Positions 6,808 through 57,127 of a stretch of DNA of 64,000 nucleotides are shown piece after piece. Source of the stretch: Alloacidobacterium dinghuense (GTDB lineage: Bacteria; Acidobacteriota; Terriglobia; Terriglobales; Acidobacteriaceae); NCBI RefSeq assembly GCF_014274465.1, contig NZ_CP060394.1:5022001-5086000 (forward strand), in the 5' to 3' direction. How positions within the stretch are numbered: position 1 is the first letter of the stretch; every line of letters starts with the position of its first letter. A program made the position numbers and the translations under genes. The notes under the pieces were generated by a model that was given only the letters and a program-made list of their open reading frames with translations, had not been told where the DNA came from and ran no database searches.

Positions 6808-9048
6808 TTACTCGCCGAAGCGCAGGCGCAAACCAAAGCGCGCGACGCGCGGCGTTCCCAAGGTGAGAATCGGCGTCTTGCCCACTTCGATAGCACGGTC
6901 GAAGAGATTTTCTCCAGCCGCAAAGACCTCCACGTGATGCCCGATCGCACGCGAACCGTAAGCATCTAGCCGGAAATAGCTGTGCAGCAGGTATTGGTTC
7001 GCATCGTCGTCGTATTGCCGTCCGCTGATGCGGGCCTGGAGACTGAGGGCCCCGATACGCGCATTGCTGACGCGCACCTGTGTCGTTGCCATGTTGCGGG
7101 CTACCTGTGGAATCCAGTTGCCGACGAGCTGCGGCTGCTGTGTATAGCTGGTTACTGTGGCATTCGCATATTGATAGCCGCCCGTGATAGCCGCCCATGA
7201 AAATGGGTGCGACTCGAAGTCGACGGAAACACCGCGGCTCTCGATCTGGCCCAGATTCTCGCGCATCAGCAAGGTGGATGTGGGGGTGGTAGCAAGCGTA
7301 AGGGCTGTAATGGGCCGGTTTACTCGCGTCCAAAAGTAGCTCGCACGGAGCATCGATTGCCAGCGTGGAATGTTTGTCTGAAATCCAGTCTCCCAACCTG
7401 TCGCACGTTCTGAACGAAGATTGGGGTTGGGCAGTGTAGTCTGCTGGCCAACCTGGCCGGTGCGGTACAGTTCATTCTCTGTCGGCGCACGGTAGGCGCG
7501 GAAGCCCGACGCATTGAGGGCAACGTTCGTGGTGATCCGTCGTGAAATTCCCAGCCGCGGATTAAACACTGTCTCGCTGAACGATGGGAGAGTGCGCGCG
7601 CCTTTCTGCGTCCATTGTTCGGCATCGAAATTCGAGAAATGATCGACGCGGCCAGATGCGCTGAGCGTCCACTTGCCCGGTGTAGCCAGCGCTTCGCCAT
7701 AGACTCCGGTCTGACGCTGACGCGCCGCTGTGTTTTGGTAACCACCAGCTCCGGTGAAAAGCACCTCGTCGTCCGACGCGCGCACATCGTGGGTGTCGGC
7801 GCCGGCGATGATCACAGCCTTTGCCCCGACCGGCTGCCGCCAATGCGCGACCGCTCCCAATTCGTCGGCCGGGTCCTCTGCATAGCGGGTCAGGGTTTCA
7901 GACGCCCGGTTTGAAGCAATGGACGAAAACGTCTGCCGATAGTGCTCGGTACTGCCGTAGAGGCGAAGTGTAAGCTGCGACCAGTCGGTGCCTCCCGAAT
8001 AGCGCCAGAGCCGCGTGCCGTTCTTCTGCAAGGGAGTACCGTTGTCGCGAGCCTCGTTCAATACGCTGCCGCGTAGAAAGACACGGCTACTGTTACGAAT
8101 TGTTCGCTCAAGATCGATTACCCCATTCTGGGCATGCACGTTGCTCGGCTGATCAATCGGTCCGCGCAGGTCCGGAGCAACGAGCGTGTATCCGTCTGTA
8201 CTTACAATGCCTGCGGCGAGTAGCCCTGCCCACGGCCCACGTTTCAGTGATCCGAGGATGCCATTGCTGGTCGTGCTTTCAGAACCATAGCCTGTAGTCA
8301 GCGCAAAAATGTCGCGCTCCGGCTTGACCGGCATGACGTTGATGACACCGCCAATTGCACTCGACCCGTAGAGATCGGACGCTCCTCCGCGCACGACCTC
8401 CACCGACTGGATGGCGAGTTCGGGCATCTCTTCCCAGTGAATCCATCCACCATATGGATCATTGAGTGGTACTTCGTCGGAAACAACGAGCGTACGGCTC
8501 GCCGCTGTCGATCCTAATCCGCGAAGGGATATGCCTTGTGACGTTGGATTTGCCACGAGTGAACTTGAACGTCGAAATAGTTCCAGTCCCGGGACCTGAC
8601 GCAATTTGCCATCGAGTGCGGGTGTTGCGGCCTCACGCAGTTGCTGCTGACCAACGATGCGCGTGCTGGCTGGACTGTCCAGGGTGTCGAGCGGTGAGCG
8701 GTATGCGGTCACTTCGACGCTCTGCTGCAACCGCTGCAATACGACGCGCGCATGCGATCCCGGCGAAAGTGTAACTGTGTCAGGGTCAAATGAAAGGGCA
8801 GTTACCTTAACGGTGATCGCTCCATGCAAGTCGTCCTGAAAGCTGAAGGCTCCGTCGTCCGCAGTTGTGCCCAGGATCGAGCCACTAAGCGTGGCAATCT
8901 CTGCATGCGAAATGCCTGCGCCCTGTTCGTCCACAACCGTACCGGAATAGAGTTGCTGTTGCTGGCTCTCACAGTGAGTCAGCAACAAACCAAACAGTAA
9001 CCATAAAAGCAGTAGCGAGGTGCATCCCGTCATGTATCGAAGCGGCAT
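6808..9048 (-). CDS. TonB-dependent receptor with carboxypeptidase-like N-terminal domain
   Basis: Outer-membrane receptor of 746 residues. Order: hydrophobic export signal (residues about 8-25), a carboxypeptidase-regulatory-like beta domain (YSGTVVDEQGAGISHAEIATL, about 33-110), a plug domain (about 125-240, with GLGSTAASRTLVVSDEVPLNDPYGGW and VEVVRGGASDLYGSSAIGGVINV), then a 22-strand-type barrel ending in the aromatic-rich VARFGLRLRFGE. The FATLPNPNLRSERATGWETGF-like segment is typical of siderophore or vitamin B12 receptors. The ligand cannot be told. The start lies 15 bp from the end of folK on the same strand. A Cys at residue 26 sits in LTHCES, a poor lipobox. Confidence 0.9.
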   Translation of the reverse strand: MPLRYMTGCTSLLLLWLLFGLLLTHCESQQQQLYSGTVVDEQGAGISHAEIATLSGSILGTTADDGAFSFQDDLHGAITVKVTALSFDPDTVTLSPGSHARVVLQRLQQSVEVTAYRSPLDTLDSPASTRIVGQQQLREAATPALDGKLRQVPGLELFRRSSSLVANPTSQGISLRGLGSTAASRTLVVSDEVPLNDPYGGWIHWEEMPELAIQSVEVVRGGASDLYGSSAIGGVINVMPVKPERDIFALTTGYGSESTTSNGILGSLKRGPWAGLLAAGIVSTDGYTLVAPDLRGPIDQPSNVHAQNGVIDLERTIRNSSRVFLRGSVLNEARDNGTPLQKNGTRLWRYSGGTDWSQLTLRLYGSTEHYRQTFSSIASNRASETLTRYAEDPADELGAVAHWRQPVGAKAVIIAGADTHDVRASDDEVLFTGAGGYQNTAARQRQTGVYGEALATPGKWTLSASGRVDHFSNFDAEQWTQKGARTLPSFSETVFNPRLGISRRITTNVALNASGFRAYRAPTENELYRTGQVGQQTTLPNPNLRSERATGWETGFQTNIPRWQSMLRASYFWTRVNRPITALTLATTPTSTLLMRENLGQIESRGVSVDFESHPFSWAAITGGYQYANATVTSYTQQPQLVGNWIPQVARNMATTQVRVSNARIGALSLQARISGRQYDDDANQYLLHSYFRLDAYGSRAIGHHVEVFAAGENLFDRAIEVGKTPILTLGTPRVARFGLRLRFGE

Positions 9049-51746: not shown

Positions 51747-53024
51747 TCAATTGATCCCGCTTGAGCGCGCCGCGAACTCGCGAGCCCGCTCCAGCAGAAG
51801 CTCCTGCTCTCGCGCATTCCGCGTCATTTGCGCAGCACGCTCGCACTCCGCTCGCGCCTCGTCATACCGCCCAAGTTTCGCCAGCAGGTCCCCGCGCACA
51901 CTCGGCAGCAGATGATAGCCCTTGAGCGATGGCTCCGCCGTCAGCGCATCCACTAACGCCAACGCCGCATCCGGACCTGAAGCCATGCTTACTGCAACCG
52001 CGCGATTCAACTCGACAATCGGAGAAGGCATAATCCGCGCCAGTTCGTCATAAAGACTCACGATGCGCGCCCAGTCTGTATCGTCTGCTACCAGGGCCCG
52101 CGCATGACAAGCTGCAATCGCCGCCTGCAAAGCATATGGTCCACGCGAACCACCCAACGCACCAGCACGCTCCAGCGCCGCAAGGCCACGCCGAATCAAA
52201 AGCCGATCCCATCGTGCGCGATCCTGATCAAGCAGCAGCACCGGCCGTCCCTCAGGCCCGGTCCGCGCCGCCGAGCGCGACGCCTGAATCTCCATCAGCG
52301 CCGCCAGCCCATGCACCTCGGCTTCCTGCGGAGCAAGCTCAGCAAGAATGCGTCCCAACCGCAGCGCATCTTCGCAAAGCGCAGGACGCATCCAGTCATC
52401 GCCCGCCGTCGCCGAATAGCCTTCGTTGAATACCAAATAGATTGCGCCCAACACCGATGCCAACCGCTGTGGCAGCTCCTTCCCACGCGGAACCTCAAAA
52501 GGAATATGCTCCTGCGCCAGCGTTCGCTTCGCGCGCACTATGCGCTGCGCAATCGTGGCTTCGGGAACAAGAAACGCCCGTGCAATCTCGTCCGTCGTCA
52601 ACCCGCCCAGCAAACGCAGCGTCAATGCAACGCGTGCTTCCGACGAGAGCACCGGATGACACGCAATAAACATCAGCCGTAGCAGATCGTCGCCGATGTC
52701 ATCATCGAGAGCTGCGTTGAAGTCCGGCACCGTCAGCTCCTGAGCTTCCAGTTCACGTCCCAGCTCTTCATGTTTGCGATCGAGCATCTGCCTGCGTCGC
52801 AGCAGATCGAGCGCGCGATGCTTCGCTGTCGTCATCAGCCACGCACCGGGCTTTTCCGGAATCCCCGACTCCGGCCATTGCTCGAGCGCCGCCACCAGCG
52901 CCTCCTGCGCCAGATCTTCGGCAATCCCGACATCGCGTACGAGTCGCGTGAGCGCGGCAATCACCTTTGCCGACTCCATCCTCCAGACCGCATCAATTGT
53001 GTTATGGATAGCAGTAGCCGTCAC
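51747..53024 (-). CDS. ECF42-group RNA polymerase sigma factor with TPR-like C-terminus
   Basis: The 425 residues comprise sigma region 2 (about 15-80, IAEDLAQEALVAALEQWPESGIPEKPGAWLMTTAKHRALDLLRR), region 4 (about 108-170, LTLRLLGGLTTDEIARAFLVPEATIAQRIVRAKRTL), then a 250-residue helical extension with TPR-like helix pairs (VHGLAALMEIQASRSAAR, ELNRAVAVSMASGPDAAL, LLAKLGRYDEARAECERAA). This plan defines the ECF42 group, which in other phyla lies beside DGPF/YCII genes and lacks an anti-sigma factor. Here the DGPF gene is 43 bp upstream, in the same direction. Confidence 0.92.
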   Translation of the reverse strand: MTATAIHNTIDAVWRMESAKVIAALTRLVRDVGIAEDLAQEALVAALEQWPESGIPEKPGAWLMTTAKHRALDLLRRRQMLDRKHEELGRELEAQELTVPDFNAALDDDIGDDLLRLMFIACHPVLSSEARVALTLRLLGGLTTDEIARAFLVPEATIAQRIVRAKRTLAQEHIPFEVPRGKELPQRLASVLGAIYLVFNEGYSATAGDDWMRPALCEDALRLGRILAELAPQEAEVHGLAALMEIQASRSAARTGPEGRPVLLLDQDRARWDRLLIRRGLAALERAGALGGSRGPYALQAAIAACHARALVADDTDWARIVSLYDELARIMPSPIVELNRAVAVSMASGPDAALALVDALTAEPSLKGYHLLPSVRGDLLAKLGRYDEARAECERAAQMTRNAREQELLLERAREFAARSSGIN

Positions 53025-53067
53025 AGCTACCGATCACATCATCATTGCGTCCACGAACGCAAGCGCC

Positions 53068-53421
53068 TTAGCATGCGAGTACAGGCCGAATCTCAAATTC
53101 CGCTTCCACATCTCCACTGCAAAGCGTAGGACAGCGCTTGATCCACGCAATCGCATCTTCCCTCGAAGCGACCTCGACCATCGTGACGCCGGCAACCAGT
53201 TCCTTCGACTCCGCGAACGGCCCATCAATCGTCGAGAACTCGCCCTTCGACAAGCGAACCCGCGTACCCCGCGAAGTGGGCTGCAGCCGCTCAACTGCGA
53301 CCAGCACTCCAGCCTTCTTCATCTCCTCGTCATACTGCCGCATCGCTTCGATCAGCTCAGGACTGGCTGGAGCATCCGACTCCATCGTCGCATCCGACTT
53401 CCGCAGAATCACAAAGCGCAT
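53068..53421 (-). CDS. DGPF (YCII-related) protein 1
   Basis: A 117-residue ferredoxin-like-fold protein with the DGPF-family core: VLVAVERLQPTSRGTRVRL, then IDGPFAESKELVAG, then DAIAWIKRCPT and EFEIRPV. GAGGAGG precedes the ATG. It directly precedes the sigma-factor gene and probably shares its transcript. A terminator separates it from the upstream VOC gene. The family is known as the partner of ECF42 sigma factors; its biochemical role is unknown. Confidence 0.92.
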   Translation of the reverse strand: MRFVILRKSDATMESDAPASPELIEAMRQYDEEMKKAGVLVAVERLQPTSRGTRVRLSKGEFSTIDGPFAESKELVAGVTMVEVASREDAIAWIKRCPTLCSGDVEAEFEIRPVLAC

Positions 53422-53439
53422 TCAGCAACCTCCTCACGG

Positions 53440-53472
53440 AAAAAGAAACGGGCTCCGCAAGCGCGGAACCCG
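53440..53472 (-). terminator. Intrinsic terminator after the VOC gene
   Basis: On the minus strand, CGGGTTCCGC-GCTT-GCGGAGCCCG (10 pairs with one G-U), then TTTCTTTTTCC. It should stop or attenuate transcripts coming from the VOC gene before the DGPF1-sigma pair. Confidence 0.85.
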
Positions 53473-53478
53473 CTCAAA

Positions 53479-53895
53479 TCAAGCCGCCGTTGCGGCGTTG
53501 GTGTTCACCATCCAGGGAATGCCAAAGCGATCGGTCAGCATTCCAAAGCGCGGCGACCAGAATGTCTCGGCGATAGGCATAGTCACCTGCCCGCCTTCCG
53601 CCAACGCATTGAAGACCCGGTCCGCCTCTGCCGCGTTGTCCACCGCAACGCAAACGCAGAACCCCTGCGGCTTCTCCTGGTGTTGCGGCGGCCCGTCAGC
53701 GCCCATCACAATCCTGTTGCCCACCCGCATTGACATATGCATGATCTTGTTTCGCCACTCCGGCTCAAATTGTGCCGCCATCGGCGACTCGCCGTACGTC
53801 ATCTTGAATTCGATCTTGCCGCCAAACGTCTTCTCGTAAAACGTGAATGCTTCCTCGCAATTGCCTCTAAAACCCAAGTGTGGGTCGATCTGCAT
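53479..53895 (-). CDS. VOC-family (PhnB-like) protein
   Basis: A 138-residue vicinal-oxygen-chelate protein: MQIDPHLGFRGNCEEAFTFYEKTFGGKIEFKMTYGESP, then FGMLTDRFGIPWMVN. Such PhnB-like proteins (sometimes named after ubiquinone methyltransferases) often accompany DGPF genes and ECF sigma factors. GAGGAGAAAC precedes the ATG. It lies 39 bp after DGPF2 in the same direction and is followed by a terminator. Confidence 0.92.
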   Translation of the reverse strand: MQIDPHLGFRGNCEEAFTFYEKTFGGKIEFKMTYGESPMAAQFEPEWRNKIMHMSMRVGNRIVMGADGPPQHQEKPQGFCVCVAVDNAAEADRVFNALAEGGQVTMPIAETFWSPRFGMLTDRFGIPWMVNTNAATAA

Positions 53896-53934
53896 GATGT
53901 TTCTCCTCGTTTCGATTTTGTTGCAATGTCGTGC

Positions 53935-54333
53935 TTACTTCTCTACCAGTTGTGCTCCCTGCACCTGATCCCGAGAACAGGGAACATCCAGATCGCCAGC
54001 CTCATACACCTGGCGAATTTCTGTCTCACCGTCGCCTGCAACTTTCAGAAAGCGCTTCGTCAGTTCAATCGCTTCTTCCTTCGAATCCGTCTGCAGCAGC
54101 GCAAAGCCCGCCACCAGTTCCTTCGATTCGGTAAACGGTCCATCTACCACGCCAAACTTTCCATTTGCCAGTCGCACGCGAGCGCCCTTCACACTTGGCA
54201 AACATCCTTCCGTCGCCACCAGTTTGCCCGACCGCATCATTTCTTCAACAAACTTCCCCATCTCCTCCATGTCCTCTTGCGCTGGTCGAATGCCTTCTGC
54301 CTGCGCCGGCTTGTACAAACAAAGAAATCGCAT
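53935..54333 (-). CDS. DGPF (YCII-related) protein 2
   Basis: 132 residues with MRFLCLYKPAQAEGIRPAQEDMEEMGKFVEEMMRSGKLVATEGCLPSVKG-type N-terminal half and the VVDGPFTESKELVAGFALL signature. GAGGAGATGAAT precedes the ATG. A TGTCGA/CGATGTG promoter lies about 45-70 bp upstream. The last 15-20 residues (after GDLDVPCSRDQVQ) extend beyond the usual domain. Confidence 0.92.
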   Translation of the reverse strand: MRFLCLYKPAQAEGIRPAQEDMEEMGKFVEEMMRSGKLVATEGCLPSVKGARVRLANGKFGVVDGPFTESKELVAGFALLQTDSKEEAIELTKRFLKVAGDGETEIRQVYEAGDLDVPCSRDQVQGAQLVEK

Positions 54334-54375
54334 TATTCATCTCCTCACGATTGTTGAATTCCGTTCCTGCTTACA

Positions 54376-54403
54376 CATCGAATGGCGTTCGTCTAAATCG
54401 ACA
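54376..54403 (-). promoter_or_regulatory. ECF42-type promoter for DGPF2
   Basis: On the minus strand TGTCGA (54403-54398), 17 bp, then CGATGTG (starts at 54380). The same motif and spacing precede DGPF3 and DGPF4. TGTCGA at -35 and a CGA-containing -10 match what I recall for ECF42 targets in Streptomyces. Confidence 0.8.
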
Positions 54404-54426
54404 GCTCGAAACGCCAGCGCAAAGAA

Positions 54427-54867
54427 TTAATTGCGCGCCGCCACCTGAGTACGCAGACGTTCTTCATGCTCTTTGAACTCAGGGGCAAGCGCCTCGCCAA
54501 AATCCTCCGGCTCAACCAGCGGACGAATCTCAATTTCAGACTCCACCCCCGGAAACGGGCACGGGCACCGTTTCACCCACTCAATCGCCTCTTCCATCGA
54601 CTTCACCTGCCACAGCCAGAACCCCGCGACCAGTTCCTTTGTCTCCGAGAACGGCCCATCAATCACCGTCCGCCCCGTGCCCGAAAACCGGACGCGCTTG
54701 CCTTTCGAACTCGGCTTCAGCCCGTCCGCCGCCAGCAGCACGCCCGCCTTTACCAGCTCTTCGTTGAACTTCCCCATGTCAGCCAGCAGCTTCTGAAACT
54801 CTTCCCTCTCTGGATGAATGCCCTCTTCAGAATCCTTCGTTGCCTTCACCATCACCATCACTCGCAT
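54427..54867 (-). CDS. DGPF (YCII-related) protein 3
   Basis: 146 residues: MRVMVMVKATKDSEEGIHPEREEFQKLLADMGKFNEELVKAGVLLAADGLKPSSKGKRVRF, VIDGPFSETKELVAGFWLWQVKSMEEAIEWVKRCPCPFPGVESEIEIRPL, then a charged C-terminal helix (DFGEALAPEFKEHEERLRTQ). AAGGAGAAATTGAG precedes the ATG. It has its own ECF42-type promoter upstream and no tight coupling to neighbours. Confidence 0.92.
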   Translation of the reverse strand: MRVMVMVKATKDSEEGIHPEREEFQKLLADMGKFNEELVKAGVLLAADGLKPSSKGKRVRFSGTGRTVIDGPFSETKELVAGFWLWQVKSMEEAIEWVKRCPCPFPGVESEIEIRPLVEPEDFGEALAPEFKEHEERLRTQVAARN

Positions 54868-54936
54868 CTCAATTTCTCCTTGTTGGAATTCGCATGCTGG
54901 GGACGACCTACCGTTTTATCCCAAGCTCTACTTCCA

Positions 54937-54964
54937 CATCGAACGGCGCATCGCAGAATCGACA
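54937..54964 (-). promoter_or_regulatory. ECF42-type promoter for DGPF3
   Basis: On the minus strand TGTCGA (54964-54959), 17 bp, then CGATGTG. The start codon of DGPF3 is about 70 bp downstream. Confidence 0.82.
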
Positions 54965-54985
54965 CGTCGCAAAACTTTTTTCGAA

Positions 54986-55333
54986 TCAGTCTCGGTCCGC
55001 AAACCGCGAGCCTTCCATCAGTGGCCGAATCTCGCACTCACCATCGCCCGCATATCGCAGAAAGTCCTTCGATGACTCCACCGCCACTTCCATCGACTCC
55101 AGTTCGAATAGCGCAAACCCGGCCACCATCTCCTTTGCCTCCGCGTACGGACCGTCCGTGATGGTAACCGCTCCCTCTTTCCGCCGAACTTTCACGCCCT
55201 CAGGCACAAGCCCGCCCGTGGCCAGCAGCGCACCCGATTTCATTGCTTCATCCACGCGTTTTTCCATTTCCTCCATATTTTCGGGCCCACACGGAGCGCG
55301 ATGGTCCGGCTTGTAAATGATCAAAAATCGCAT
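54986..55333 (-). CDS. DGPF (YCII-related) protein 4
   Basis: 115 residues beginning MRFLIIYKPDHRAPCGPENMEEMEKRVDEAMKSGALLATGGLVPEG, with ITDGPYAEAKEMVAGFALFELESMEVAVESSKDFLRYAGDGECEIRPL; DGPF is DGPY here. I start at 55333, where the family N-terminus MRFL begins and GAGAG lies upstream, not at the far end of the open frame (55378). The promoter at 55404-55431 would give a leader of roughly 65 bases. Confidence 0.9.
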   Translation of the reverse strand: MRFLIIYKPDHRAPCGPENMEEMEKRVDEAMKSGALLATGGLVPEGVKVRRKEGAVTITDGPYAEAKEMVAGFALFELESMEVAVESSKDFLRYAGDGECEIRPLMEGSRFADRD

Positions 55334-55403
55334 AGCAAATCTCTCTCCATTTCGTCGCAAATGAAGGCAGCACCCCAATCACGGAATCCCGCCCCTGCTT
55401 TCA

Positions 55404-55431
55404 CGTCGAACAAGACCTTCCCGGATCGACA
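55404..55431 (-). promoter_or_regulatory. ECF42-type promoter for DGPF4
   Basis: On the minus strand TGTCGA (55431-55426), 17 bp, then CGACGTG. It differs from the other two only by C for T in the -10 element. Confidence 0.8.
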
Positions 55432-55515: not shown

Positions 55516-57069
55516 CTACCGCCCAGGTTCGGGCCCGAGTTCCCAAAGCTCGTCATACCGCGAGCCATGATCGAGCCAGAAAACCTGCGCAGGATGGTAG
55601 TTCTGCTCAAGATATTGCCGGAAAGGCGCCGAGTGATCCTGCCCCGGCGTCACATGCTTGTTCTCTGGATACAAAATGAAGTGCGGAGGCCGCCGCCTGA
55701 GCGCCTTAATCACCGCGTCCACCTGCTCCGGCCGTGTGAAGTCGTCATAGTTCACAAACTCGGATGGGGTGGGATTATCCAGCGCCAGGTACATGGCAAC
55801 CCCCATGTGGTTGAAGAAGACATCTGACGGCTGAGCCCGCTGCGCCAGCCACTGAAACTCATGAAATTCATCTGGATCGGCAAAAGCCGTCCGTCCAATC
55901 GGCAGATCGGCCGTCGCATGCCACCTCCTCTGGCGATGCAGCGGCGGCAGCACAAAAAAGAGGATCGCCAGCCCCCACACTACCCCGCGAACGTACCGAT
56001 ATACGGGACGAGTCTCGCTGATCAGCCAGACAAACGCAAGAATCGCAGGCGGAGCCACCGTGCTTAGCCGAAACAGCCGCGGGCCGCTGGCAACCGCCAG
56101 AAACAGAGCAAACCCCACAACATGCAAAAGCACGAGCTGCTTGCGCAACATCGCAGACAGCACCGCGCGCTTACGCCAAAGCCGATACGCCCCGAAAAAA
56201 TAACTGTAGGGAACCAGCGCATAAATAAACAGCGAGGGAAGAATGCGGACGCAATCGGCAATCGAATGAATCGGCGGAAGCTGGCGAAGATACGTGCGAG
56301 GCGAATTCACATCGCCCGAAGAAAGGTATCGCGGCGCAAACAGAACCAGATCGAAATAAACAGTCCGAAAACCCGCCTTATGAACGTAGTAGCCAAGAAC
56401 GCACGCAATCACCACCCCGAACGGAGCAGCCAAAAGCGCAAGCTTCTTCAGCACACTCGAACCACCATCGGCTCTCTTCTTCCACAACAGGTAGGCAGCG
56501 ACAGCGACAAACGCCAACACTCCCTGCGTCTGCGTGAACAACACCGCTATCCCGCAAAGAAGACCGGCAACCAAAACCCTCCAACGATCGACACCGCCAA
56601 CAAGCACGCCAGCCGCAGCCAGCGCAGCAAGTGTGCTGTACCAGTGGTGCGTCGGATCCAGCGCAAGGCCGTAATCGAACACCAGAAACAGCAGACCCGG
56701 CAGCAGCACCAGCCATCCGCGAAAGAGTTTGCTCGCGATCCAGGTAACCACAGAGAAGAGCGCGAATCCAAGCGCAATCGCCCACGCCTGCAAGAGCCAC
56801 GCATGCACACCGAAAACGCGAAACCCCGCCGCATACAGCAGATCCGTGCCCGGCGTCACCAACTCAAAAACATCGCGGTACAGAACCTGACCATGCACCA
56901 GCCGCAAGGCTCGAACGAAAAACAGAATCTGGTCGTGATCCGCAACAAAAGGAGCCGCAGGCAAAAGAAATGTCTGCAGATACAAGAACGCCAGCACGCC
57001 CGTAAGGGCCAGCATCAGAGCAGAACGCGAAAGTGATTTCCCCGCATTAAAAGGCGCGTCTTTCGTCAT
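55516..57069 (-). CDS. Polytopic membrane protein, GT-C glycosyltransferase-like
   Basis: About 517 residues with ten or more membrane helices in the first 400 and a soluble C-terminal part (LAQRAQPSDVFFNHMGVAMYLALDNPTPSEFVNYDDF). The layout, including an acidic first loop (FVADHDQILFFVRALRLVHGQVLYRDVFELVTPGTDLLYA), fits lipid-linked-sugar transferases of the GT39/ArnT type. Donor and acceptor are unknown. Start is uncertain: ATG 57069 is used, but in-frame GTGs at 57087 and 57099 are possible. Confidence 0.75.
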   Translation of the reverse strand: MTKDAPFNAGKSLSRSALMLALTGVLAFLYLQTFLLPAAPFVADHDQILFFVRALRLVHGQVLYRDVFELVTPGTDLLYAAGFRVFGVHAWLLQAWAIALGFALFSVVTWIASKLFRGWLVLLPGLLFLVFDYGLALDPTHHWYSTLAALAAAGVLVGGVDRWRVLVAGLLCGIAVLFTQTQGVLAFVAVAAYLLWKKRADGGSSVLKKLALLAAPFGVVIACVLGYYVHKAGFRTVYFDLVLFAPRYLSSGDVNSPRTYLRQLPPIHSIADCVRILPSLFIYALVPYSYFFGAYRLWRKRAVLSAMLRKQLVLLHVVGFALFLAVASGPRLFRLSTVAPPAILAFVWLISETRPVYRYVRGVVWGLAILFFVLPPLHRQRRWHATADLPIGRTAFADPDEFHEFQWLAQRAQPSDVFFNHMGVAMYLALDNPTPSEFVNYDDFTRPEQVDAVIKALRRRPPHFILYPENKHVTPGQDHSAPFRQYLEQNYHPAQVFWLDHGSRYDELWELGPEPGR

Positions 57070-57127
57070 GGGCTTGGTCGTCCCCACGCAGTATCCCACG
57101 CCCGCATCAGAATTCGACTCTGCCCAA

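Follow-up and report, generated by a model that had tools for sequence, protein, structure and literature searches.

An ECF42 sigma factor cluster with four YCII genes in Alloacidobacterium dinghuense, and promoter spacings that seem to keep its paralogues apart

The closest described counterparts of the gene cluster considered here, which lies in a 64,000-nucleotide stretch of the Alloacidobacterium dinghuense chromosome (NZ_CP060394.1, positions 5,022,001 to 5,086,000; 'the window', whose own numbering is used below), are systems built around extracytoplasmic function (ECF) sigma factors of group ECF42. Liu et al. in 2018 reportedly described the Streptomyces venezuelae ECF42 promoter as TGTCGA and CGA/TC, and the Pseudomonas putida factor ECF-10 is said to be linked to antibiotic and oxidative stress. 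In extracts of the published accounts, which are the form in which all papers cited here by accession are used, ECF-10 is placed in group ECF42 like the window factor, the S. venezuelae members (Sven_0747, Sven_4377, Sven_7131) share with it a TPR-rich extension of ~200 residues, and the group is described as having YCII neighbours (PMC8999054). Reviews hold this extension to be needed for activity and probably to be a protein-interaction surface (PMC8999054, PMC9023288). In Sinorhizobium meliloti, the ECF42 factor RpoE10 likewise has a YCII neighbour, TGTCGG-N17-CGTC promoters and glyoxalase-like targets, and is reported not to activate its own YCII-rpoE10 transcript, a further probable likeness to the cluster described here; the genes raised there are those of two operons, of which one adjoins rpoE10 and the other is located elsewhere, and the YCII gene is not among them (PMC6180224). 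The ECF41 sigma factors resemble the window factor in having a fused C-terminal regulator and neighbouring genes as targets, but carry a SnoaL-like extension and use TGTCACA-n16-CGTC promoters (PMC3426412), neither of which was found in the window, where the extension is all-helical in the model. Sigma factors with DUF6596 have already been published as common in Acidobacteria (PMC11119718).

Set beside these systems, the window cluster is predicted to be a canonical ECF42 regulon, richer than average in YCII genes and otherwise a further example of a familiar switch. It encodes one sigma factor, four YCII proteins and one VOC protein, the whole set on the minus strand, and in the direction of transcription the order is P1, YCII-A, P2, YCII-B, P3, YCII-C, VOC, YCII-D and sigma factor. 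The parts, in order of coordinate and with distances in nucleotides (nt), are as follows.

51747–53024, minus strand: ECF42 sigma factor, 425 amino acids, GTG start; sigma region 2, region 4, DUF6596 and TPR-like C-terminal extension
53068–53421, minus strand: YCII/DGPF protein D (PF03795); 44 nt 5′ of the sigma gene, not itself preceded by an ECF42 box
53446–53475, minus strand: terminator-like hairpin of 13 pairs followed by CTTTTT, between VOC and YCII-D
53479–53895, minus strand: VOC (glyoxalase-like) protein (PF06983, PF00903); PDB relative 1u6l; co-directional with YCII-C
53935–54333, minus strand: YCII/DGPF protein C (PF03795)
54374–54403, minus strand: putative ECF42-type promoter P3, TGTCGA-N17-CGATGTG; ends 40 nt before the YCII-C start codon, core kept in sister loci L048 and L049
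54427–54867, minus strand: YCII/DGPF protein B (PF03795); PDB relative 1s7i, PA1349
54935–54964, minus strand: putative ECF42-type promoter P2, TGTCGA-N17-CGATGTG; ends 67 nt before the YCII-B start codon, kept in L048 and L049; homologous copy in front of a MacB-type permease gene at another place in the genome
54986–55333, minus strand: YCII protein A, DGPY variant (PF03795)
55402–55431, minus strand: putative ECF42-type promoter P1, TGTCGA-N17-CGACGTG; ends 68 nt before the YCII-A start codon

A first-pass annotation, made from the sequence alone, had read this region as one TPR-bearing ECF sigma factor lying together with four DGPF/YCII proteins and a VOC protein, a gene content that Pfam confirms, with DGPY replacing DGPF in one of the four YCII proteins (YCII-A). 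Sigma70_r2, Sigma70_r4_2 and DUF6596 (125 bits) exceed the Pfam cut-offs in the sigma factor and TPR_2 falls below its own; neither region 3 nor SnoaL gave a Pfam match there. In the AlphaFold2 model (48 rows, mean pLDDT 91), residues 90–108 form a linker of low confidence and the C-terminal half is all-helical; TPR superhelices rank first in the Foldseek search with this model, one at E < 0.001 with a TM-score to the query of only 0.30, and ECF sigma factors appear at ranks 25 and 38. The four PDB sequence matches are ECF sigma factors and cover residues 18–170 only. The protein thus has regions 2 and 4 without 3 and a DUF6596/TPR-character extension of about 200 residues, and it is linked both to YCII/DGPF genes and to promoter-like sites with TGTCGA in the −35 and CGA/TC in the −10 element, all of which are features of ECF42. 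Compared with S. venezuelae, a single cluster with three boxes here holds four YCII genes plus a VOC gene, and the genome has two further paralogues with other promoter signatures; compared with S. meliloti, the window has boxes before three YCII genes.

The boxes are present as the annotation had proposed: TGTCGA-N17-CGAYGTG has three exact minus-strand matches in the window (mean 0.01 in 100 shuffles, none of which reached three), situated 40–68 nt before YCII starts. The whole genome holds six exact sites and none of the reversed pattern. Three of the six belong to the cluster; a fourth precedes a MacB-type permease gene, a fifth falls within a methionyl-tRNA synthetase gene that runs on the opposite strand, and the sixth is beside a TonB-receptor-like gene and points away from it.

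The same arrangement recurs in relatives. At E 1e-100 or better, 81 of 200 genomes of the family match the sigma factor (up to eight candidates per genome were scored, and paralogue numbers are lower bounds); from these matches we drew an orthologue set (rows of at least 60% identity, 44 in number, of which 43 were used and a fragment at a contig end was dropped) and a paralogue set (23 of 64 rows, at 46–53% identity). YCII genes stand beside the sigma gene in 40 of the 43 orthologous loci, and in 31 of the 43 a box lies no more than 400 nt upstream of a YCII or VOC gene. The form TGTCGA-N17-CG[AT][CT] is found 46 times in the 16.8 kb upstream of YCII genes of these loci and nine times in the 872 kb (both strands) elsewhere in them, so that the motif marks targets by position and not by sequence alone. 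Within 200 nt before the YCII genes, the 17-nt form occurs once on the opposite strand and the 16-nt form is absent from the orthologue set; peaks at 13 and 20 nt in the spacer counts are overlaps of the same sites. The consensus of 45 orthologue-set sites is TGTCGA-Ttt.gc....c.tCgTT-CGAC-GT.taa.TAgAG, with a conserved −10 core of TTCGWY-GT, in which the TT before the −10 element and a downstream TAGAG are kept. In the wording first given to the box, the final G of CGAYGTG is not conserved. The exact motif stands at chance in 59 other genomes of the family (nine sites against 13 in the control, three of the nine before YCII genes) because the −10 core varies there, being CGAC, CGAT or CGTC followed by GT and any base.

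In the two sister species (loci L048 and L049) the order is YCII-B, YCII-C, VOC, a DoxX-like gene, YCII-D and sigma, and no counterpart of YCII-A was found in either locus. Boxes precede YCII-B and YCII-C at orthologous positions in both, with spacer sequences that differ. Farther afield, we examined the best 80 of at least 594 confirmed loci in named genomes, whose sigma factors are 62–77% identical to that of the window and which span Actinobacteria, Bacilli, Proteobacteria, Chloroflexi, Gemmatimonadetes, Acidobacteria and others. YCII genes number none in two of these loci, one in 41, two in 33 and three in four, counts that are lower bounds since the contigs are often short; 78 of the 80 thus hold at least one, which together with the domain set upholds the view of an ECF42 factor with DGPF partners. 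A second sigma gene is present in two. Defined here as TGTCG(A/G)-N16-18-CG(A/T)(C/T) at most 200 nt before a YCII or VOC gene, at least one box occurs in 65 of the 80, and the spacers measure 17 nt in 75 of 77 cases and 18 nt in the other two. The annotation's reading of boxes kept at a fixed 17-nt spacing is thereby supported. The suggestion that a multi-DGPF version would be an acidobacterial peculiarity is not supported by this comparison: the same unit occurs across phyla, 37 of the 80 loci carry two or three YCII genes, and two loci of the family itself (L105 and L121) also have four. The ECF42–DGPF switch and its promoter thus differ little from one bacterial phylum to another.

The gene families, the boxes with their spacing and conservation, and a hairpin are directly visible in the DNA. 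The hairpin, at 53446–53475, sits immediately 3′ of the VOC stop codon (z −3.28), and hairpins of changed sequence hold the corresponding position in the sister loci, with 10 pairs in L048 (z −2.29) and 12 in L049 (z −1.67). No ECF42 box was found before YCII-D and the sigma gene, where the best match has 10 of the 15 consensus letters. Transcription from the boxes, termination and a role for the extension are what we infer, as follows. RNA polymerase-bound sigma factor would read TGTCGA with region 4 and CGAY, exactly 17 nt downstream, with region 2, and would start three transcripts, one of YCII-A, one of YCII-B and one of YCII-C with VOC. The terminator-like hairpin would limit read-through into YCII-D and the sigma gene, so that positive feedback would be weak or absent in this genus. 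The TPR-like extension would set the activity of the factor, probably via protein or ligand contact and not via an anti-sigma factor; the annotation had stated that no anti-sigma gene is present, no anti-sigma family was recognized by Pfam among the cluster proteins, and the neighbouring protein at 55516–57099 matched no Pfam family. The long C-terminus may be the sensor, as the annotation suggested; the reviews cited above describe a probable protein-interaction surface. We give a probability of roughly 0.87 to this reading of the cluster as a canonical ECF42 regulon with three box-driven transcripts, hairpin-limited read-through and activity set by the extension.

Several observations weigh against it. 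By the patterns used, 12 of the 43 orthologous and 15 of the 80 named loci have no box, some of them on contigs that end near the sigma gene. The annotation had proposed that the motif should exceed chance frequency genome-wide, which is true of exact matches in this genome (six against none) and fails for relaxed ones, which are at or near chance: with one mismatch allowed there are 21 sites in the genome against 15 in the control, and an extended pattern with up to two mismatches gives six against six there and, over four congeneric genomes, 21 against 17. Relaxed matches are therefore not counted as targets. Terminator-like patterns across the whole cluster number seven, against 4.2 in shuffles, and a hairpin before the sigma gene was rejected as a general device (two of 24 orthologue gaps, against 30 of 480 in shuffles), which limits the weak-feedback step to this genus.

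That last step is also where the most serious alternative arises, namely that every transcript continues into the sigma gene, giving strong positive autoregulation. The genes are co-directional with short gaps, and in many orthologues a box-bearing YCII gene immediately precedes the sigma gene, but in the window a T-run hairpin follows VOC, with hairpins at the same place in both sisters, and YCII-D and the sigma gene lack a box; moreover, overexpression of RpoE10 in S. meliloti is reported to have left its own YCII neighbour unraised (PMC6180224). We regard strong autoregulation here as unlikely, at something like one chance in a handful. Given the hairpin in this genus and the adjoining box-bearing YCII gene in many orthologues, feedback on the sigma gene probably differs between lineages.

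The boxes themselves might be something other than sigma promoters. Bipartite elements of fixed spacing can be operators of another DNA-binding regulator, yet the layout and sequence resemble ECF42 promoters upstream of starts in S. meliloti, in the extract cited (PMC6180224), spacer length shifts together with the sigma clade, and no other DNA-binding regulator family was recognized by Pfam among the cluster proteins; we consider operators very unlikely. Still less credit is due to the idea that a single promoter–gene unit was recently duplicated in tandem and left the three boxes behind as passive remnants. Their likeness, their similar distance from the start codon and the downstream letters AAGYAG that they have in common would fit such an origin, but the boxes are constant where the spacers differ and are kept in other phyla, and the four YCII proteins lie apart on a quick tree with few columns, YCII-B, -C and -D each nearest to counterparts in other genomes and YCII-A on a long branch, which argues that the shared boxes are not duplication remnants. 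On the YCII tree, a single sensor-type clade of sigma-adjacent YCII proteins was also unsupported, as it would need 11 changes.

Beyond the canonical regulon, the promoter codes of its paralogues and the permeases that they seem to share are the part worth following. The annotation mentions neither the hairpin nor the two further paralogues nor the permeases. The genome encodes three DUF6596 sigma factors. The YCII gene of the second ECF42 paralogue (C1:3163503-3164702) is preceded by TGTCGATTTT, a 16-nt spacer and CGACTATAGG, and in the paralogue set the sites before YCII genes comprise 19 of 16-nt and three of 17-nt spacing (the background in 574 kb being 10 and 5, respectively). Across four congeneric genomes, TGTCGANT-N14-CGACTATA has five exact sites and one with a mismatch, against none in controls. 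The third paralogue has TGTCCA or TGTCGA, 17 nt and CGTCA(C/T)GGTAGT before its YCII gene in three genomes, as in L035, where TGTCCA-N17-CGTCACGGTAGT lies upstream of the YCII gene at 6866-7222 (minus strand). On a quick sigma tree, from which a row carrying both spacer types was omitted, two changes of spacer length are needed among the remaining rows. Tests that compared spacer with clade ignore kinship. Sigma-factor residues that separate the 16-nt from the 17-nt group were found and are a lead only, because the two groups are also clades.

The permease preceded by an exact 17-nt site is of MacB/FtsX type and lies near the second ECF42 locus (C1:3157317-3159782, minus strand). Before it, a stretch of about 110 bp (L034:3798-3906; gene L034:1315-3783, minus strand) that stops 14 nt short of the start matches a sister species' YCII-B promoter and leader at 84%. 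Its matches in the same genome at E 1e-40 or better number 65 (all 91 candidates were scored): itself, one at 57% identity (C1:2742406-2744889, minus strand) and the rest at 27–32%. Upstream of the 57% paralogue, a 16-nt CGACTATA site begins at a distance of 75 nt (L231, around 1501-1530). In a survey of the family that covered the upstream DNA of 43 of 50 rows (320 nt for 30 rows, 400 nt for the others) with spacers of 16–17 nt, one permease clade (68–100% identity) has a site in 10 of 28 members, always with 17 nt and including a weak one at a distance of 319 nt, and the other (53–59% identity) in four of 15, all of 16 nt and one weak; opposite-strand controls gave one in 30 and none in 16, and an initial range of 15–18 nt also returned two 15-nt matches (L238 and L249). 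Most of the permeases surveyed thus have no recognizable site, and the association is an enrichment, not a rule. MacB_PCD domains are matched 146 times in the genome as a whole, which marks MacB/FtsX-type permeases as greatly expanded.

In extracts on Mycobacterium tuberculosis sigma-H, spacing is strict in vitro, with activity that peaks at 17 bp and is reduced at 16 and 18 (PMC6411747). On this ground we propose that the ECF42 paralogues here are separated by spacing: within one genome, a single base between the promoter elements seems to hold the switches apart. In its full form, the proposal is that three paralogues are insulated by code (TGTCGA-N17-CGAY-GT; TGTCGA-N16-CGAC-TATA; TGTC(C/G)A-N17-CGTCA(C/T)GGTAGT), that a clade of MacB-type permeases is split between the first two codes, and that one permease was recoded by a copy of ~110 bp of a DGPF promoter and leader; taken together, we would wager no more for this than against it. 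Among the titles and abstracts listed in searches of open-licence literature, none dealt with the spacing of ECF42 paralogues or with permeases as targets, so novelty is unproven. The codes let nature answer whether altering the spacing by a single base suffices to keep paralogous sigma factors separate, and the permease, which joins the likely targets, may hint at what these widespread and unexplained ECF42 switches respond to.

Some smaller observations concern the same genes. The DoxX-like gene of the sister loci (L048:5229-5621, plus strand, and the same place in L049; the DoxX family match was tested for L048 only) lies between VOC and YCII-D and is missing in the window. Two relaxed sites differ in the last base alone: one near the family consensus (L021:1501-1530, minus strand) ends 21 nt before a possible alpha/beta-hydrolase-like frame and may be a candidate further target, and the other (L007) lies inside a peptidase M24 gene. 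Finally, ~159 residues of the ECF42 extension (query 227–385) are matched at about 50% identity, with no match to the sigma domains, in many Klebsiella, Escherichia and Acinetobacter plasmids among the matches listed.

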